From positions 1 to 27,655 of the IMG/VR virus record IMGVR_UViG_3300042885_000641: 27,655 nucleotides of DNA; one strand, given 5' to 3'. Under the pieces are notes generated by a model. The model ran no database searches. It saw nothing but the letters and a program-made list of their open reading frames with translations, and had not been told where the DNA came from. A program made the translations under genes and the position numbers. Source of the DNA: a virus. Positions 12,015 through 26,685 of this stretch are shown in pieces (positions within the stretch are counted from its first letter, which is position 1; the number at the start of each line of letters is the position of its first letter).

Positions 12015-12044
12015 CAAAGGTATAACCGTTTTTTAAACTACAAA
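12015..12044 (-). promoter_or_regulatory. Leftward promoter of the GP88 cassette
   Basis: On the minus strand TTTG (12044-12041), an 18-base spacer and TACCTTTG (12022-12015) match the Bacteroidota housekeeping promoter pattern; the -7 box is perfect. Transcription would start near 12010, about 15 bases before the ATG at 11994. Confidence 0.75.
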
Positions 12045-12116: not shown

Positions 12117-12144
12117 ACACACACACACACACACACACACACAT
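12117..12144. repeat. (AC)14 dinucleotide microsatellite
   Basis: Fourteen uninterrupted AC units lie in the gene-free gap between divergent promoters. The surrounding 12045-12217 has no gene. Such a long dinucleotide tract is rare in phage DNA and would be prone to length change by slippage. Confidence 0.9.
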
Positions 12145-12217: not shown

Positions 12218-12377
12218 TTGACGAGCTGCTGACGATTGACGATTGACGATTGACGATTGACGAGCGGTTGACGATAAGTTGACGATATCTTGACGACTGA
12301 CGAAAAAAAAAGTTGACGAGCAAAAACAGCCTTGACGATACCAAATTGAGGATTTCTTGACGATTGACGACTGACGA
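12218..12377 (+). repeat. Array of 15 TTGACGA/CTGACGA heptamers
   Basis: Copies start at 12218, 12229, 12236, 12243, 12250, 12257, 12268, 12279, 12290, 12297, 12313, 12332, 12357, 12364 and 12371; five (12229-12263) are in perfect tandem. Start-to-start distances are mostly 7 or 11 bases. All are in the same orientation and the array ends 23 bases before the -33 box of the early promoter. Eight further copies lie in the next three genes (12466-13012). Candidate roles are binding sites for a regulator or initiator, or a self-spreading short repeat. Confidence 0.92.
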
Positions 12378-12399: not shown

Positions 12400-12431
12400 T
12401 TTGGTAGATAATTCAAAACCAGTTAGTATTG
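12400..12431 (+). promoter_or_regulatory. Early rightward promoter
   Basis: TTTG (12400-12403), a 20-base spacer and TAGTATTG (12424-12431) fit the Bacteroidota pattern with one change in the -7 box. The start would be near 12437, 17 bases before ATG 12454. The segment TATTGCAG and the CAAA[AC]AAC leader are shared with the promoter at 19183-19213. Confidence 0.7.
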
Positions 12432-12453: not shown

Positions 12454-12627
12454 ATGACAAACACATTGACGATTGACGAAATCAAAAGCATCCTTGCTTC
12501 TTTTGACTATGAGGAATGCCCATACGCTGAATGCAAGCGTATCAAAGCAGAGCTGAACGCCAATGGCTGGGACTGCGAATATGGTCTTGACGGATCTATC
12601 CATAGCGTTAAACCATTGACGATATGA
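12454..12627 (+). CDS. Hypothetical early protein containing heptamer-encoded LTIDE, 57 aa
   Basis: The first gene after the early promoter encodes 57 residues: MTNTLTIDEIKSILASFDYEE, then CPYAECKRIKAELNANGWDCE. Two tandem heptamers (12466-12479) encode Leu-Thr-Ile-Asp-Glu at the N-terminus, and one more encodes the last Leu-Thr-Ile before the stop. The protein looks like a small helical fold with three cysteines. The stop overlaps the next start (ATGA). No family is recognised. Because the heptamer sits at both termini, the gene ends may have been extended or overwritten by the repeat. Confidence 0.65.
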   Translation: MTNTLTIDEIKSILASFDYEECPYAECKRIKAELNANGWDCEYGLDGSIHSVKPLTI

Positions 12628-12785
12628 TAAGCAAACCCATCCACGCTGTGTTGACGATGTTAACCCCATGGGGCAAATACATCCTCGCTGACAAGCAATT
12701 TGTTGACGATAACCACTTGACGAACTACTCGTTGATGATGATTAAAAAAGGCTACAAAATAGTATCTACCGAAATCTTTAAATAA
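12624..12785 (+). CDS. Hypothetical early protein, 53 aa
   Basis: ATG at 12624 overlaps the preceding stop by four bases and opens 53 codons to TAA 12785. The product (MISKPIHAVLTMLTPWGKYI, then LADKQFVDDNHLTNYSLMMI and KKGYKIVSTEIFK) is a short mixed alpha/beta sequence, unrecognised. Three heptamers lie within it in different codon phases (12651, 12703, 12717), encoding VLTM, VDD and LTN, so the repeat is not confined to one frame. Coupled translation with the upstream gene is likely. Confidence 0.6.
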   Translation: MISKPIHAVLTMLTPWGKYILADKQFVDDNHLTNYSLMMIKKGYKIVSTEIFK

Positions 12786-12791
12786 AACCAC

Positions 12792-13064
12792 ATGAACACT
12801 TTACCTAAAAATTGGCTCGTGCCACGCTGTCGAGAAGCTATCGATCTTCTCAACTACTACAACCCTGATGCTGCCTTTATGCTGGAGCTTATGTACAAGG
12901 ATAGTGACGATGGGAGAGTTAAGCCCCTATATGACCATATAGGCGTTCTTGAGGGCGAGATATGGCCTTGGGTCTTAAAGCCACCAATGTGCGAGCTGCT
13001 GACGATTGACGAATTTAAAGAAAAAATCTACGATCCGTTTGTATTTGATTTCGATTTACCTTAA
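12792..13064 (+). CDS. Hypothetical early protein, 90 aa
   Basis: This 90-residue acidic protein (MNTLPKNWLVPRCREAIDLLNYYNPDA, then GRVKPLYDHIGVLEGEIWPW) has no family I recognise. Near its C-terminus two tandem heptamers (12999-13012) encode LLTIDEF, inside a 21-base block identical to 12222-12242 in the noncoding array. The end VFDFDLP is rich in aromatic and acidic residues, like an SSB-type tail or docking peptide, but this may be chance. It lies seven bases after the previous stop. Confidence 0.65.
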   Translation: MNTLPKNWLVPRCREAIDLLNYYNPDAAFMLELMYKDSDDGRVKPLYDHIGVLEGEIWPWVLKPPMCELLTIDEFKEKIYDPFVFDFDLP

Positions 13065-13113
13065 TATTACTAACTTTTTGAAAAAACAAGTCTCAATACT
13101 AACCCCTAAAAAA

Positions 13114-13353
13114 ATGAAGAAAAAGACCGTTTATGACTTCCTGATGCAGATGCCGCAGGATATCTCCTCAAAAGCATTGATAAATGCTAATAAGGAAGTT
13201 TTGGCTGAAGAAGCCGACAGTGTATGTGATGCCCTCGCCCAGGCTTTTGTATGGGAAAAAAGCCCTCAGGGCCATGATTATTGGGAGTCTATCTTCAATG
13301 CCTATGAGGATGACATCTCCGCTGACAATATGTTTGGCTCATCTCTAAATTGA
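13114..13353 (+). CDS. Hypothetical early protein, 79 aa
   Basis: I chose ATG 13114, preceded by an A-rich stretch (CTAAAAAAA) and matching where protein-like sequence begins (MKKKTVYDFLMQMPQDISSKAL). The upstream in-frame extension would overlap the previous gene and looks non-coding. The 79-residue product is acidic and helical (EEADSVCDALAQAFVW, then DYWESIFNAYEDDI). No family is recognised. It ends just before the next gene. Confidence 0.65.
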   Translation: MKKKTVYDFLMQMPQDISSKALINANKEVLAEEADSVCDALAQAFVWEKSPQGHDYWESIFNAYEDDISADNMFGSSLN

Positions 13354-13356
13354 TTG

Positions 13357-13749
13357 ATGATGATTAAGAGACGATGGGAAGAAAGAAAGCAGCACGAAAT
13401 CCAGCTGATTACATTTATGTGGCCACTGCCTATGGATGCTGTTGAGCAAGTGAAGAGCCACTTAAGATATGGTGATGTGAGCGAGATAGCCGAGCAGCTT
13501 GGAGTAAAAATCCTTAAAGTGTGGGACTACTTGAATAGAGAGCGCAGCAAGTATGATGTGAGGATTATGCTGGCTATCTTGAGGAAGGCAGAGCAGAACA
13601 TCGAGATGGAGCTGATGATGATTCCCGAGGAAGAGCATCCGCCAAGATTGATGATGAGAAAGTACCTTGACAAAATTTTTAAATTCTATAAAACCAAAGA
13701 ACAACCAAAAGTAAGACCCTATGTACGACCTGGACAAAAAAAGGATTAG
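13357..13749 (+). CDS. Helix-turn-helix DNA-binding protein (putative)
   Basis: This protein of about 131 residues has a likely HTH in the centre, roughly residues 41-60: GDVSEIAEQLGVKILKVWDYL, with the Ala-x3-Gly-Val spacing of phage repressor-like helices, followed by RERSKYDVRIMLAILRKAEQNIE. In related phage proteins an HTH is followed by this 'vleALl..Ae.n' helix. The C-terminus is basic (VRPYVRPGQKKD) and would suit DNA contact. Two adjacent ATGs (13357, 13360) could start it. Position at the front of the early region suggests a regulator, perhaps of the nearby promoter or heptamer array; that link is speculative. Confidence 0.65.
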   Translation: MMIKRRWEERKQHEIQLITFMWPLPMDAVEQVKSHLRYGDVSEIAEQLGVKILKVWDYLNRERSKYDVRIMLAILRKAEQNIEMELMMIPEEEHPPRLMMRKYLDKIFKFYKTKEQPKVRPYVRPGQKKD

Positions 13750-13905: not shown

Positions 13906-14487
13906 ATGAACAACTTAATCAAAGCCTTATTCGAGGCAAAAAAGGAAATCGGCAAAATCAAGAAGGACATGAAGAATCCTTTCTTTAAGAAAAACTATGC
14001 CGACATCAACAGCATCATCGACCAAGTAGAGCCAATCTTTGAGAAGCACGGTTTGCTTTTACTGCAACCTATTGAGGATGGAATGGTGAAGAGCGTTATC
14101 TACCACGTTGAGAGCGGAGAGAACGTAGAGAGCAGCATGAGGCTTACCGGTAGTAACAACCCCCAGGCTGTCGGGTCTGAAATAACCTACTACCGAAGGT
14201 ACACTTTACAGAGCTTGTGCGCCTTGCAAGCCGAGGATGATGATGCCAACTTAGCTTCGGGAAGAGTTGCTCCTACTTATGCTCCTACACAGCCACAAGC
14301 AAAGCCAGCGAGTGATGCTCAGGTGAAGATGGCTAAGGACCTATGGGAGAATGGCAAGAGTGTTGATGCTGGTAAGCTCGTGCCTTTAGCGATGAAATAC
14401 AAGTTCTCGCAGACTCGTAGGATTGAGAACCTCAATGCGGTAGAGATAAATCTTTTGATCGTAGACCTTCAAGCCTTTGTAAAATGA
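13906..14487 (+). CDS. erf: ERF-family single-strand annealing recombinase
   Basis: This 193-residue protein belongs to the ERF superfamily of phage single-strand annealing proteins (P22 Erf type), which promote recombination and circularisation of phage DNA. Diagnostic segments are NPFFKKNYADINSIIDQVEPI (about residues 24-44), HGLLLLQPI (49-57), ESSMRLTGSNNPQAVGSEIT (76-95), and YYRRYTLQSLCALQAEDDDAN (96-116). A Pro/Gln/Ala-rich linker then leads to a C-terminal helical domain (about 135-193) resembling the variable protein-interaction part. The stop overlaps the methyltransferase start by four bases. Annealing activity is inferred from family. Confidence 0.93.
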   Translation: MNNLIKALFEAKKEIGKIKKDMKNPFFKKNYADINSIIDQVEPIFEKHGLLLLQPIEDGMVKSVIYHVESGENVESSMRLTGSNNPQAVGSEITYYRRYTLQSLCALQAEDDDANLASGRVAPTYAPTQPQAKPASDAQVKMAKDLWENGKSVDAGKLVPLAMKYKFSQTRRIENLNAVEINLLIVDLQAFVK

Positions 14488-16115
14488 AGTATGGCTCTTG
14501 CTTTAGTGGGATAGAGGCAGCCTCTGTTGCTTGGCATCCACTTGGCTGGGAGGGGCAATGGTTCTCAGAGATAGAGCCATTCCCTTCTGCTGTGATGGCG
14601 CATAGATTCCCTAACGTACCTAACCTCGGTGACATAACTCAAATACACAATGACGAAAGATTTGAAAAATCAACAATTGACCTTTTGGTCGGAGGAAGCC
14701 CATGTCAATCCTTCTCAGTCGCAGGACTTAGAAAAGGACTTTCTGACCCTCGGGGAAACCTCATGCTCACATTTCTTAGTGTGGCTGAAAGAAAGAAGCC
14801 ACGCTGGATTGTTTGGGAAAACGTCCCCGGTGTGTTGTCATCGAACGGAGGACGGGATTTTGCTTCCTTCCTCACAGCGTTGGCAGAACTCGGGTATGGG
14901 TTCTCCTACCGGGTTCTTGACGCTCAGTACTTCGGAGTCGCACAGCGCAGAAGACGTGTGTTTGTTGTCGGATACCTTGGAGACTGGAGACCTACCGCAG
15001 CGGTATTATTTGAGTCCCACAGCTTGCAAGGGAATCCTAAACCGAGCAGAAAAAAGAGGGAAGAAGCTACCGCAGGTTCTGAAGGAAGCACTGGAGAGAG
15101 TCGTAAACCAATAGTGATGGCGAGCGGTCAAGCCAATGCTGAAATCAGAGAAGATGATGGATGCACTACGCTTAACTGCATACATGAAGCACCTATTGTC
15201 ATTGATAGGGCAGCCTTTAATCAGGGTGTGAATGCTCAGTATGAGAGTCGCATTGAAGAGGGCGAGACAATGTCTCCCCTTGTAGCTAAAGGCCCGCACG
15301 CTGTTGCTTTCGATGTCTACAATAGCAATCTAACTGGAGACAAGGTTGGCGTTATAAGAGAGCAGCATGGAACTAATACGAATGCTGTAATTCTTCCTGC
15401 CCACGCATTTAAAGTAAGAGGTGGCTCAAGTGTAGAAACTGGCGAGCAGGGCGGAAAGCCTGGTAGAGTAGCCGGCAAGGGATACCTCGGTCAAGATGAA
15501 TGTGTATTTACCATCCAAGCTACGCAAGATCAGATGATAGCGCAGCCAATATGTTTTGAAGACAGCCGTAGGGATAGTGTTAGGATTAATGGAGAGATAA
15601 GCAATACTCTATCTGCACAAATGGGAACTGGCGGAAATAATACACCTATGATAGCGCAGCCGATTCCAATCACTATTTGTTCAAATGATGCTAATGGGAC
15701 AAGAAAGGATAGACCAAATGGAGGTTTTTATGTTACCGAAAATCCTGATGTTATCGGTTCGCTTACATTAGCAGAGAATGACACAAAAGTTTTGCAGCCG
15801 TTAGCCGTAGACTGCTACAATCAGACAGTCAATGAGAAGACATCACAAACAATTGGTAGTTCTGCCAGCGATGTTAATCACTATGGTGCTGTGCTTCATT
15901 CAATGGCTATCCGTAGATTGACTCCAACGGAATGTGAAAGATTGCAGGGATTTCCTGACTCTTGGACACAAATCCCCTACCGCAACAAACCTGCCAACCT
16001 ATGCCCCGATGGACCACGATACAAGGCTTGTGGCAACTCAATGGCTGTGCCGGTTATGCGGTGGATAGGAGAAAGAATTAACTTAGTAGAAAACCTTTTA
16101 AACCAAAACAAATGA
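14484..16115 (+). CDS. DNA (cytosine-5) methyltransferase
   Basis: This 543-residue enzyme transfers a methyl group from S-adenosylmethionine to carbon 5 of cytosine. Motifs are in standard order: I CFSGIEAAS (6-14), IV GGSPCQSF with catalytic Cys74, VI WENVPG (111-116), VIII QRRRRVF (154-160), a long variable target-recognition region (about 180-470), then TPTECERLQGFPDSW and X GNSMAVPV (517-524). The variable region contains phage-typical stretches (RAAFNQGVNAQYESRIEEGE; SAQMGTGGNNTPMIAQP), making the enzyme longer than usual. It probably protects phage DNA from host restriction. Start ATGA overlaps erf. A long second frame lies inside (14650-15114). Confidence 0.95.
   Translation: MKYGSCFSGIEAASVAWHPLGWEGQWFSEIEPFPSAVMAHRFPNVPNLGDITQIHNDERFEKSTIDLLVGGSPCQSFSVAGLRKGLSDPRGNLMLTFLSVAERKKPRWIVWENVPGVLSSNGGRDFASFLTALAELGYGFSYRVLDAQYFGVAQRRRRVFVVGYLGDWRPTAAVLFESHSLQGNPKPSRKKREEATAGSEGSTGESRKPIVMASGQANAEIREDDGCTTLNCIHEAPIVIDRAAFNQGVNAQYESRIEEGETMSPLVAKGPHAVAFDVYNSNLTGDKVGVIREQHGTNTNAVILPAHAFKVRGGSSVETGEQGGKPGRVAGKGYLGQDECVFTIQATQDQMIAQPICFEDSRRDSVRINGEISNTLSAQMGTGGNNTPMIAQPIPITICSNDANGTRKDRPNGGFYVTENPDVIGSLTLAENDTKVLQPLAVDCYNQTVNEKTSQTIGSSASDVNHYGAVLHSMAIRRLTPTECERLQGFPDSWTQIPYRNKPANLCPDGPRYKACGNSMAVPVMRWIGERINLVENLLNQNK
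14650..15114 (+). CDS. Overlapping +1-frame gene within the methyltransferase (putative)
   Basis: In the +1 frame of the methyltransferase, ATG 14650 opens 154 codons without a stop. The product (MTKDLKNQQLTFWSEEA...; FGKTSPVC; RWQNSGMGSPTGFLTLSTSE; LETGDLPQRYYLSPTACKGI; AEKRGKKLPQVL) resembles small hypothetical proteins I recall being annotated in many phages and prophages near cytosine methylase genes, including the N-terminal ATG position. Conserved methyltransferase motifs underneath would also make the alternative frame look conserved, so similarity alone is not proof. No catalytic motif is seen. The two readings are separable by codon-level selection tests or peptide evidence. Confidence 0.42.
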   Translation: MTKDLKNQQLTFWSEEAHVNPSQSQDLEKDFLTLGETSCSHFLVWLKERSHAGLFGKTSPVCCHRTEDGILLPSSQRWQNSGMGSPTGFLTLSTSESHSAEDVCLLSDTLETGDLPQRYYLSPTACKGILNRAEKRGKKLPQVLKEALERVVNQ

Positions 16116-16555
16116 ACTTAATAGAAATCCCACGCAGTAACGTAGGCAAGGAAGACATCGCTATCTACGCTGCAAACATGATTAGCCTCGTAGAAGAAGG
16201 CGAGGTAAACCCATTAGAGTTTCACATCAAAGCTAAGGCACTTTCTAAGGCTTTAGCGGACGTAATTGCTAAGACAGAGGAGCTGACAAGGGAAGAGGCA
16301 ATGAAGTACTCTCAGAAGCAATTTGAAGCCTTTGGAGCGACTATCCAACTCAAGGAGGGTGCAGACACCCCCGACCTGGACATCGACCCTATCCTGCGAG
16401 AATTAAAGGCTAAGGTGAAGGATAGAGAAGAGCTGCTCAAGCAAGCCTACAAGATGAAAGGCAAGGGAGAGATAGTAGACCCCTCTACCGGGGAGTTCGT
16501 TCCTGCTCTCCCTCCGAAGCCAACGAAGTCATCCATCGCAATCACTTTTAAATAA
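16112..16555 (+). CDS. Hypothetical replication-region protein, 147 aa
   Basis: This 147-residue, mostly helical protein starts in an ATGA overlap with the methyltransferase. The N-terminal half (IAIYAANMISLVEEGEVNPL, EFHIKAKALSKALADVIAKTEELTREEA) and a Gly/Ala/Pro-containing C-terminal tail are typical of uncharacterised phage proteins that accompany ERF or RecT genes in Bacteroidota phages. I cannot assign a function; a Gp157-like accessory role is possible from helical layout and position, but no signature is visible. Confidence 0.7.
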   Translation: MNLIEIPRSNVGKEDIAIYAANMISLVEEGEVNPLEFHIKAKALSKALADVIAKTEELTREEAMKYSQKQFEAFGATIQLKEGADTPDLDIDPILRELKAKVKDREELLKQAYKMKGKGEIVDPSTGEFVPALPPKPTKSSIAITFK

Positions 16556-19233: not shown

Positions 19234-19410
19234 ATGGAACAGATAAAATTAGCCTTAGAGCAATATGCCAAGGCGCACCCCGAAATCAAAGATCATATAT
19301 TAGGTATTCAGTTTGCTCTTTATGATACTATCAACTGCATCTACAAGGAAGGATTAGACCATGGCTTAGGAATAGCCGATAGAGTGAAGGAGGCTAAGGA
19401 AAATGTATAG
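19234..19410 (+). CDS. Small helical protein, 58 aa
   Basis: ATG 19234 follows the promoter at 19183-19213 and opens 58 codons to TAG 19410, overlapping the next start by eight bases. The product (MEQIKLALEQYAKAHPEIKD, then GIQFALYDTINCIYKEGLDH) is helical. Its proximity to the promoter and the coupled DnaA-IV gene supports coding, but no function is recognised. Confidence 0.6.
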   Translation: MEQIKLALEQYAKAHPEIKDHILGIQFALYDTINCIYKEGLDHGLGIADRVKEAKENV

Positions 19411-19816
19411 TAAGGATAGAGCAGAAGACATCATCGAGTATGTCTCAATGAAGACGCAGATAAGCGTTGAAGGAATGAAGTCATCCTCAAGGAAGAGAGA
19501 GATAGTCACAGCAAGGCAATGTGCCATTTGGATTATCAAAAAGGATATGAAGGAGATAACACTATCTCAGCTTGCATCGCACTTCGGTGATAGACATCAC
19601 TCTACAATCATTCACTCCTTAGATGCGGTGGAAGATCAGCTATTTTGCAACAACTCAGAATACACCTGGGTAAAGAGAGCAAGAGTAAAATACAGCAGAA
19701 CCTCAGGCATGAAAGAGATTTGCGTCTACATCCCTCGTAGCTTAGAGCAGGAGTGTTTAGATGGATTTAATAAGGTTATACAAAAGCTCTTAATTCAAGA
19801 AAATGGAAGCATTTGA
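19403..19816 (+). CDS. Free-standing DnaA domain IV protein
   Basis: This 137-residue protein carries the DNA-binding domain IV of DnaA without the AAA+ part. Residues about 28-80 show SSSRKREIVTARQCAIWIIKK, ITLSQLASHFGDRHHSTIIH and SLDAVEDQL, matching the DnaA basic loop and HTH signature. In bacteria this domain binds 9-mer DnaA boxes. Here it probably binds phage or host origin boxes, either helping phage replication or competing with host DnaA. The C-terminal 50 residues (YSRTSGMKEICVYIPRSLEQ) are extra. It overlaps its neighbours at both ends. Confidence 0.9.
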   Translation: MYSKDRAEDIIEYVSMKTQISVEGMKSSSRKREIVTARQCAIWIIKKDMKEITLSQLASHFGDRHHSTIIHSLDAVEDQLFCNNSEYTWVKRARVKYSRTSGMKEICVYIPRSLEQECLDGFNKVIQKLLIQENGSI

Positions 19817-25986: not shown

Positions 25987-26685
25987 TTAAATCTTATGCA
26001 GATTGTATTTATTATGATACCTGCCGCTTAAGATATTGGAAATATAAGATGCACTTTTGCCAAAAAATTCGGCAGTTTCATTTATTGAATTGAAAGTGAT
26101 ATCATTTGATTCACAATAAATTTTTTTCTTATTTGCATTATGTAACGAATCCATAATATGCTTCGGCATACGCTTGCCTTTATTTGAATCAGAAATCTTT
26201 TTCCTTGAATCAGCAGAATGTTTTTTGCCAAAAAACGGATTTCCTTCACCAGTTAAACTTTGAGATATTTTTTTACAAACCTCAATAGGCACTCTTCTCC
26301 CTTTTAGGCTATTACTTATTTTTTTACGATGTTCAATAGATACCGTTCTCTTCCCTTTTGTAGCCTTAGCTGCTTCGGACATCTTCCTTCTTGACTCTTC
26401 TGTAAAGTTCATAGAGGAGTCTCCGCCTATTGAAGAATTCTTGAGGTTGTAAGAACATCTATCTGCTGCTGCATTAAGAGATTTAAGAATTGATTCTTCA
26501 AACTCTCTAAAATCAGTCCCTATATAAAGTATTTCACGACTAAAAAAACATGGGTTTTTCTTGTATGAAGCCAAAAAGGCTTTTCCACTACCGATATATG
26601 AATCGGTAATTTCACCGCAATGACTTCCAATATACCACTTTTCATTTGACACGTTAGTCCAGCGATATACAAAGCCTAATTTCAT
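25987..26685 (-). CDS. GIY-YIG homing endonuclease
   Basis: This 232-residue protein is a free-standing mobile endonuclease. The GIY-YIG domain is at the N-terminus (FVYRWTN, KWYIGS about 17-22, YIGSG, EESIL). Four NUMOD3-type DNA-binding repeats follow (ESRRKMSEAAKATKGKR; EHRKKISNSLKGRR; KKISQSLTGEGNPFFGKKHS; SRKKISDSNKGKRM), then a C-terminal NUMOD1/IENR1-like HTH (NSINETAEFFGKSASYISNI). It starts within the stop of its upstream neighbour. The gene is more A+T-rich than its neighbours, indicating recent arrival; it probably cuts a nearby cognate sequence in related phages. Confidence 0.95.
   Translation of the reverse strand: MKLGFVYRWTNVSNEKWYIGSHCGEITDSYIGSGKAFLASYKKNPCFFSREILYIGTDFREFEESILKSLNAAADRCSYNLKNSSIGGDSSMNFTEESRRKMSEAAKATKGKRTVSIEHRKKISNSLKGRRVPIEVCKKISQSLTGEGNPFFGKKHSADSRKKISDSNKGKRMPKHIMDSLHNANKKKIYCESNDITFNSINETAEFFGKSASYISNILSGRYHNKYNLHKI

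Follow-up and report, generated by a model that had tools for sequence, protein, structure and literature searches.

The dense heptamer array beside the early promoter of this virus and the same heptamers dispersed in its early genes may together form one cis-acting element for the control of early transcription, each site serving a helix-turn-helix (HTH)-type reader that shuts the early gene cluster off. Judged from the sequence, the balance for and against this tentative reading is nearly even. The element is conserved in related phages in its place and orientation, its intragenic sites are under constraint, and it ends at, and co-occurs with, the gene of a small phage HTH protein, the candidate by which it is probably read. 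Because of this co-occurrence we infer that the HTH protein binds the heptamers; its effect would be negative and would also reach elongation. The features are collected in Table 1, with positions in the window, which is the whole stretch of 27,655 nucleotides analysed.

Table 1. Position and basis of the heptamer sites, promoters and early genes in the window.
Feature	Position	Strand	Basis or remark
Predicted leftward promoter: TACCTTTG at 12022-12015, TTTG at 12044-12041, 18 bp upstream	12015-12044	-	By eye, window only
Dense YTGACGA array, 15 units, steps mainly 7 and 11 bp	12218-12377	+	Sequence; kept in about 45 related contigs
Predicted rightward early promoter, Bacteroidota-type: TTTG at 12400-12403, 20 bp, TAGTATTG at 12424-12431	12400-12431	+	Sequence; kept in relatives
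Four small early genes: 12454-12627, 12624-12785, 12792-13064, 13114-13353	12454-13353	+	First three hold dispersed sites
Tandem heptamer pair in early gene 12454-12627, encoding LTIDE	12466-12479	+	Sequence; clade A relatives at same positions
Four dispersed heptamers in early genes: 12616, 12651, 12703, 12717	12616-12723	+	
Tandem heptamer pair in early gene 12792-13064; last of the territory	12999-13012	+	
Small HTH protein gene, candidate heptamer reader	13357-13749	+	No + strand heptamer past its start in the window

All 15 same-orientation heptamers that the initial annotation had placed within 160 bp were found on the + strand, 12 as TTGACGA and three as CTGACGA. The perfect tandem of five that it had described lies at 12229-12263, and its 11-bp steps run on from there (12257, 12268, 12279, 12290) with four-nucleotide spacers that vary (GCTG, GCGG, TAAG, TATC). 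The extent of the array had been given correctly, but eight further same-strand sites downstream had been missed. Since the TTTG of the -33-like element sits at 12400-12403, the array ends 22 bp before it, so that the earlier value of 23 bp to the early promoter was nearly right. YTGACGA occurs 28 times on both strands of the window, compared with 3.84 expected (sd 1.89; 100 shuffles of the whole window, maximum 9), and 23 of these 28 lie on the + strand between 12218 and 13012.

A search for clustered TTGACGA in related phages, which the initial annotation had suggested, yielded arrays in about 45 related viral contigs of three clades; with respect to the early genes, these arrays keep one position. 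The contigs came from pattern scans of viral contigs and were admitted as relatives by a terminase, portal-region or replication protein match to the window. Clade A comprises the window, L016, L160, L055, L139, L116 and L172; clade B, with its subgroup B', comprises L115, L042, L086, L138, L125, L146 and others; clade C comprises L047, L142, L176, L181 and L436. The arrays hold 8-20 same-direction units across the phage family, and the heptamers are exact while the spacers vary. In 27 arrays we counted 281 TTGACGA, 21 CTGACGA and 12 one-mismatch neighbours, a tally that understates variation because the units were chosen by pattern. Steps of 7 and 11 bp predominate in A, B and B' (for the second spacing, 111 at 11 bp versus 5 at 10 bp) and steps of 7 and 10 bp in C (15 at 10 bp versus 1 at 11 bp). 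A spacing that tracks the clade in this way is as expected if the reader evolves together with the phage.

In the viral scan, arrays with 7/11-bp steps turned up in this phage group alone, and most other long arrays were different simple tandem repeats (L128, L166, L208, L287). The reversed heptamer AGCAGTT, used as control, gave many matches, most of them in codon repeats with a 9-bp period; three units by themselves are therefore no specific signal, and only long 7/11 arrays were counted. No near-identical phages were found in INPHARED, and a literature search for the heptamer motif returned unrelated sequence matches only. Some relatives carry a second array (L115, 4001-4079; L122, reverse strand, 13328-13402; L181, 2325-2409; G017, that is L354/L355, 23969-24155). 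These second arrays occur in two clades and lie about 1.5 kb leftward of the promoter array, next to a terminator-like hairpin at which leftward genes end. They keep the genome orientation of the promoter array and are antisense to the surrounding leftward genes, which by eye we take to be beta-clamp-like and RadC-like.

The array is linked to a promoter throughout. In all 29 arrays checked, the last heptamer was followed at 3-74 bp by a TAnn[TA]TTG box, with the first early gene starting a short way beyond; these arrays come from related contigs and are not 29 independent cases. The box was a perfect TAnnTTTG, the consensus of the Bacteroidota primary promoter -7 element (PMC7366714), in 26 of them; the other three, all of clade A and including the window, have TAGTATTG, with one mismatch. 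The distance from array to promoter varies from clade to clade (3 to 74 bp), which counts against the proposed reading. Clades A and C have the array upstream of the promoter, and in clade B the last two heptamers directly adjoin the -7 box, 3-17 bp upstream of it. From their position, the last clade B heptamers appear to fall within the stretch covered by RNA polymerase, and a protein bound there should exclude the polymerase.

Beyond the promoter of the window, all eight + strand heptamers (12466-13012) lie within the small early genes. Under synonymous recoding, 0.70 (sd 0.81) sites would be expected in the early coding genes of the window, and 1.2-3.6 in those of clade B, where 8-17 were observed. 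For genes within about 2.2 kb of the array, the observed and recoded counts were 16 and 2.6 in G006, 17 and 3.6 in L115, 17 and 2.2 in L138, and 7 and 1.5 in G015. Altogether the excess over the synonymous-codon null is about 3-12 fold, and genes more than 2.2 kb away showed none (0-2 sites versus 0-2.2 under recoding). The 120 coding sites, with orthologous sites tallied once per contig, occur in both of the frames in which TGA is not read as a codon (87 and 33 cases) and encode 18 tripeptides. The constraint is therefore not on a peptide, and a peptide-motif reading of LTIDE was ruled out on the same grounds. Between diverged pairs about 40% of the sites keep their position, compared with 6-19% of other 7-mers, so that sites turn over with their density held. 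All 23 clustered sites of the window are on the early sense strand, and likewise in the relatives; the heptamer territory spans 0.8-2.5 kb, and its downstream sites are nearly all intragenic. Of the earlier interpretation, the proposal of a cluster of binding sites (operator, enhancer or origin) gains support: conservation in relatives, the kept motif, the varied spacers, the place next to a promoter and the sites beyond codon expectation all fit it.

In contigs that have the HTH gene, the sites stop at its start. A 44.5-kb contig contains 19 sites before the gene, one at +43 nt and none in the following 40 kb. In clade B the last two sites lie 92-95 bp before and 43 nt after the HTH start codon, and almost no sites follow in up to 40 kb. 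Where array-bearing contigs extend as far as its place, the HTH gene was present in 18 of 18; in array-less relatives it was present in 0 of 17. Searching for relatives of the neighbouring protein 16112-16555 had also brought in an array-less lineage whose gene order differs. This co-occurrence is at the level of clades, with few independent events behind it. HTH relatives were sought by single-protein searches, the alignment being insufficiently conserved for a profile search of viral contigs. All HTH-encoding contigs with the early cluster upstream have sites there; L444 and L445 have HTH genes with other genes upstream and no upstream sites, and retain the +43 site.

In the structural model of the window HTH protein, the HTH core is predicted with confidence (mean pLDDT 88 or more, residues 21-80). 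The model resembles phage HTH proteins in BFVD, with probability 1.0 but E 0.05-0.1; fold searches gave no significant PDB match, and nothing above cut-off was found in Pfam and NCBIfam. Homology to Mor or C, the activators of phage Mu, was suggested by a weak fold match but found no support in sequence, where hhalign gave probabilities of 0.5% and 0.15%. The clade B model suggests, at low confidence, an added wing and extra domains. Among the binders named in the initial annotation, the HTH protein appears to be the best candidate reader, favoured by co-occurrence and by the end of the territory at its gene; the DnaA domain IV protein and the DnaD-like initiator, which differ between clades, were poor candidates. 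The main weakness of the HTH reading, as judged from the protein sequences, is that the recognition helices vary between clades while the motif is fixed: the HTH proteins share about 20-31% identity between clades, their recognition helices differ, and TGACGA is constant. L5-type stoperator motifs drift along with their repressors (PMC6550527). The motif may be frozen by the number of its sites while the HTH protein changes.

On this basis the following course can be proposed. Each YTGACGA would bind a small protein that recognises this sequence, the phage HTH protein being the likeliest one. Soon after infection, transcription would start from the rightward promoter, with expression of the small genes first and of the HTH gene after them. 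As the HTH protein accumulates, it would fill the array head-to-tail over the 7-bp and 11-bp neighbours and block the promoter, and molecules on the oriented intragenic sites would hinder RNA polymerase elongation. The early cluster would thus be shut off after a delay, by feedback from the HTH gene at its end. An elongation block of the rightward operon leaves the second arrays among leftward genes unaccounted for, and this leaves room for an origin or another function tied to genome orientation.

A replication origin is accordingly the first rival to be weighed. The heptamers would be initiator iterons, the A/T-rich stretch after the array the melting region and the dispersed sites extra initiator sites. 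The direct repeats do adjoin an A/T-rich tract, the phage proteins include DnaB, a DnaA domain IV protein and a helicase loader of DnaD type, and one genome orientation is kept even in the second arrays among leftward genes. The possible readers fit poorly, however. The DnaD-like protein was rejected as reader since its N-terminal, DNA-binding part varies from clade to clade, or is absent, against a motif that does not change. The DnaA domain IV protein, a stand-alone protein encoded at 19403-19813 of the window, was rejected as well: it occurs in seven array-less contigs, and its recognition motif changes, with HHST in clade A in place of the DHST kept in clades B and C. The GC-skew minimum lies near the array in two contigs and elsewhere in two others, and no cluster of TTATNCACA DnaA boxes was present near the arrays in 12 contigs, so that DnaA-box iterons were not supported. 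The array, moreover, is always linked to a promoter. We therefore consider an origin possible but unlikely, and less supported than transcriptional control. It is quite unlikely that the array binds a phage or host activator that recruits RNA polymerase from upstream of the early promoter, with the dispersed sites loading or storing it. The upstream position in clades A and C and the 7+4 bp direct repeats, a SARP-type activator layout (PMC5930380), agree with such a role, but the clade B heptamers directly upstream of the -7 box occupy the core promoter, a location typical of repression; the sites across genes are left unexplained, and none of the phage proteins scanned could be recognised as SARP or OmpR-like.

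That a conserved host protein, for example one with a Chi-like or nucleoid function, reads TTGACGA and is exploited by the phage would explain why the motif is identical across clades despite diverged phage proteins. We regard this as very unlikely, since the 7/11-bp arrays of the viral scan are restricted to one phage group, the spacing varies by phage clade, the sites are local to one operon, and the 11-bp pair is not in excess in 148 Bacteroidota genomes (4 matches versus 13 for the reversed control). Binding of a protein to UUGACGA in the early mRNA, as by TRAP or antitermination proteins, agrees with the sense-strand location of all early-gene sites but is highly improbable: the early mRNA does not include the densest part, which precedes the promoter, the second arrays are antisense to the surrounding genes, and the array RNA folds only weakly better than shuffles (z -2.3). 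Equally little credence can be given to the view that the heptamers are a short tandem repeat, selfish or neutral, propagated by slippage. Perfect tandems are frequent, the spacer is repeated in some arrays and array length is variable, yet exact heptamers with diverse spacers, the fixed promoter-side place in three clades, the single orientation and the stop at one gene speak against it. The likeness to the short tandem heptamers of cyanobacteria, seen in the initial annotation, was not supported, for related reasons: spacers differ, heptamers are exact, the place is homologous, and the comparable 7/11-bp arrays found are all in this phage group. Cyanobacterial STRRs occupy many unrelated genomic places, in contrast to the one homologous promoter-linked place of the phage array (plus the second array in some relatives).

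Among known systems, the element would work most like the operators and stoperators of L5, yet it stands outside that family. As in L5 and the cluster A mycobacteriophages, whose repressor is gp71, many short asymmetric sites in one orientation to transcription lie at and after an early promoter (PMC9283540, PMC6550527). Both have a small phage HTH protein as reader, here a candidate, the present element being known from its sequence. The L5 system has a 13-bp motif and more than 20 sites genome-wide, mostly intergenic, in temperate phages (PMC9283540, PMC6550527); the present one, unlike it, has a 7-bp motif, a dense 7/11-bp array, intragenic sites within about 2 kb and no integrase family match. 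The L5-type repressor consists of an N-terminal HTH and a Stoperator domain; for the phage protein, an HTH is predicted and no PDB entry matched significantly. Omega/parS systems pair a ribbon-helix-helix ParB with a ParA. The ribbon-helix-helix protein omega of plasmid pSM19035 binds contiguous 7-bp non-palindromic units over promoters, 7-10 per site (PMC9499535). Contiguous heptads over promoters are thus common to omega/parS and the phage, but omega units are WATCACW in mixed orientation, unlike the single orientation, 10/11-bp steps, frequent 3-4 bp gaps and intragenic sites of the phage, and no ribbon-helix-helix protein was recognised among the scanned phage proteins. SARP/PhoB-type sites have 2-3 units and OmpR-type readers. 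Their repeats (7 bp + 4 bp) resemble the heptamers at 11-bp steps upstream of the promoter, but the phage array has 8-20 units, which also stand end to end. The binding sites of Aca proteins are inverted repeats, one or two of them, located at the promoter. The small early genes without assigned function, the early promoter and the cluster-terminal HTH gene recall anti-CRISPR operons with Aca autorepressors (e.g. Aca2, PMC8434428), from which the phage differs in its long direct-repeat array and its sites in genes.

The array-bearing uncultured phages probably infect Bacteroidota. No Phage_integrase was found in 21 family records, most of them fragments and with serine integrases left out, and no close terminase relative was found in 395 Bacteroidota genomes; both results point to a phage that does not integrate, without proving it. 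A prophage or host origin was rejected on the terminase result and on the lack of excess of the 11-bp pair described above. Of partition functions, only a ParB N-domain protein was found. It is possible, though doubtful, that the element is novel as a dense promoter array with oriented intragenic sites up to a regulator gene, by which Bacteroidota phages that seem not to integrate control the start of transcription as well as its elongation, the motif being frozen by site number and the regulator changing. Early-gene control in Bacteroidota phages has been little studied. If the reading is true, this compact element, with regulatory sites that lie within coding sequence, would extend stoperator-like systems beyond the temperate phages of actinobacteria, and the small genes it controls would be well worth considering for roles in host takeover or anti-defence.

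Some minor features of these genomes were also observed. The window encodes a homing-endonuclease-like protein (25987-26685, PHROG 314), for which the relatives compared gave no match, and a DNA cytosine methyltransferase-like protein (14484-16115), present in some relatives and mostly missing in the close relative L016. The array-less lineage L397-L439 shares the 16112-16555 protein and some replication genes, has another gene order and lacks the HTH gene. Low-complexity C-rich sequence precedes many arrays (12117-12143 in the window; L125 and L009, for example, among relatives) in the form of CA, TCCCA or GGACCTTT repeats, the opposite strand being G-rich in some. Repeated copies of the inverted repeat TGTCCA-N6-TGGACA immediately precede the heptamer array in clade B (L023, L033, L195) and are possibly operators of a second regulator.
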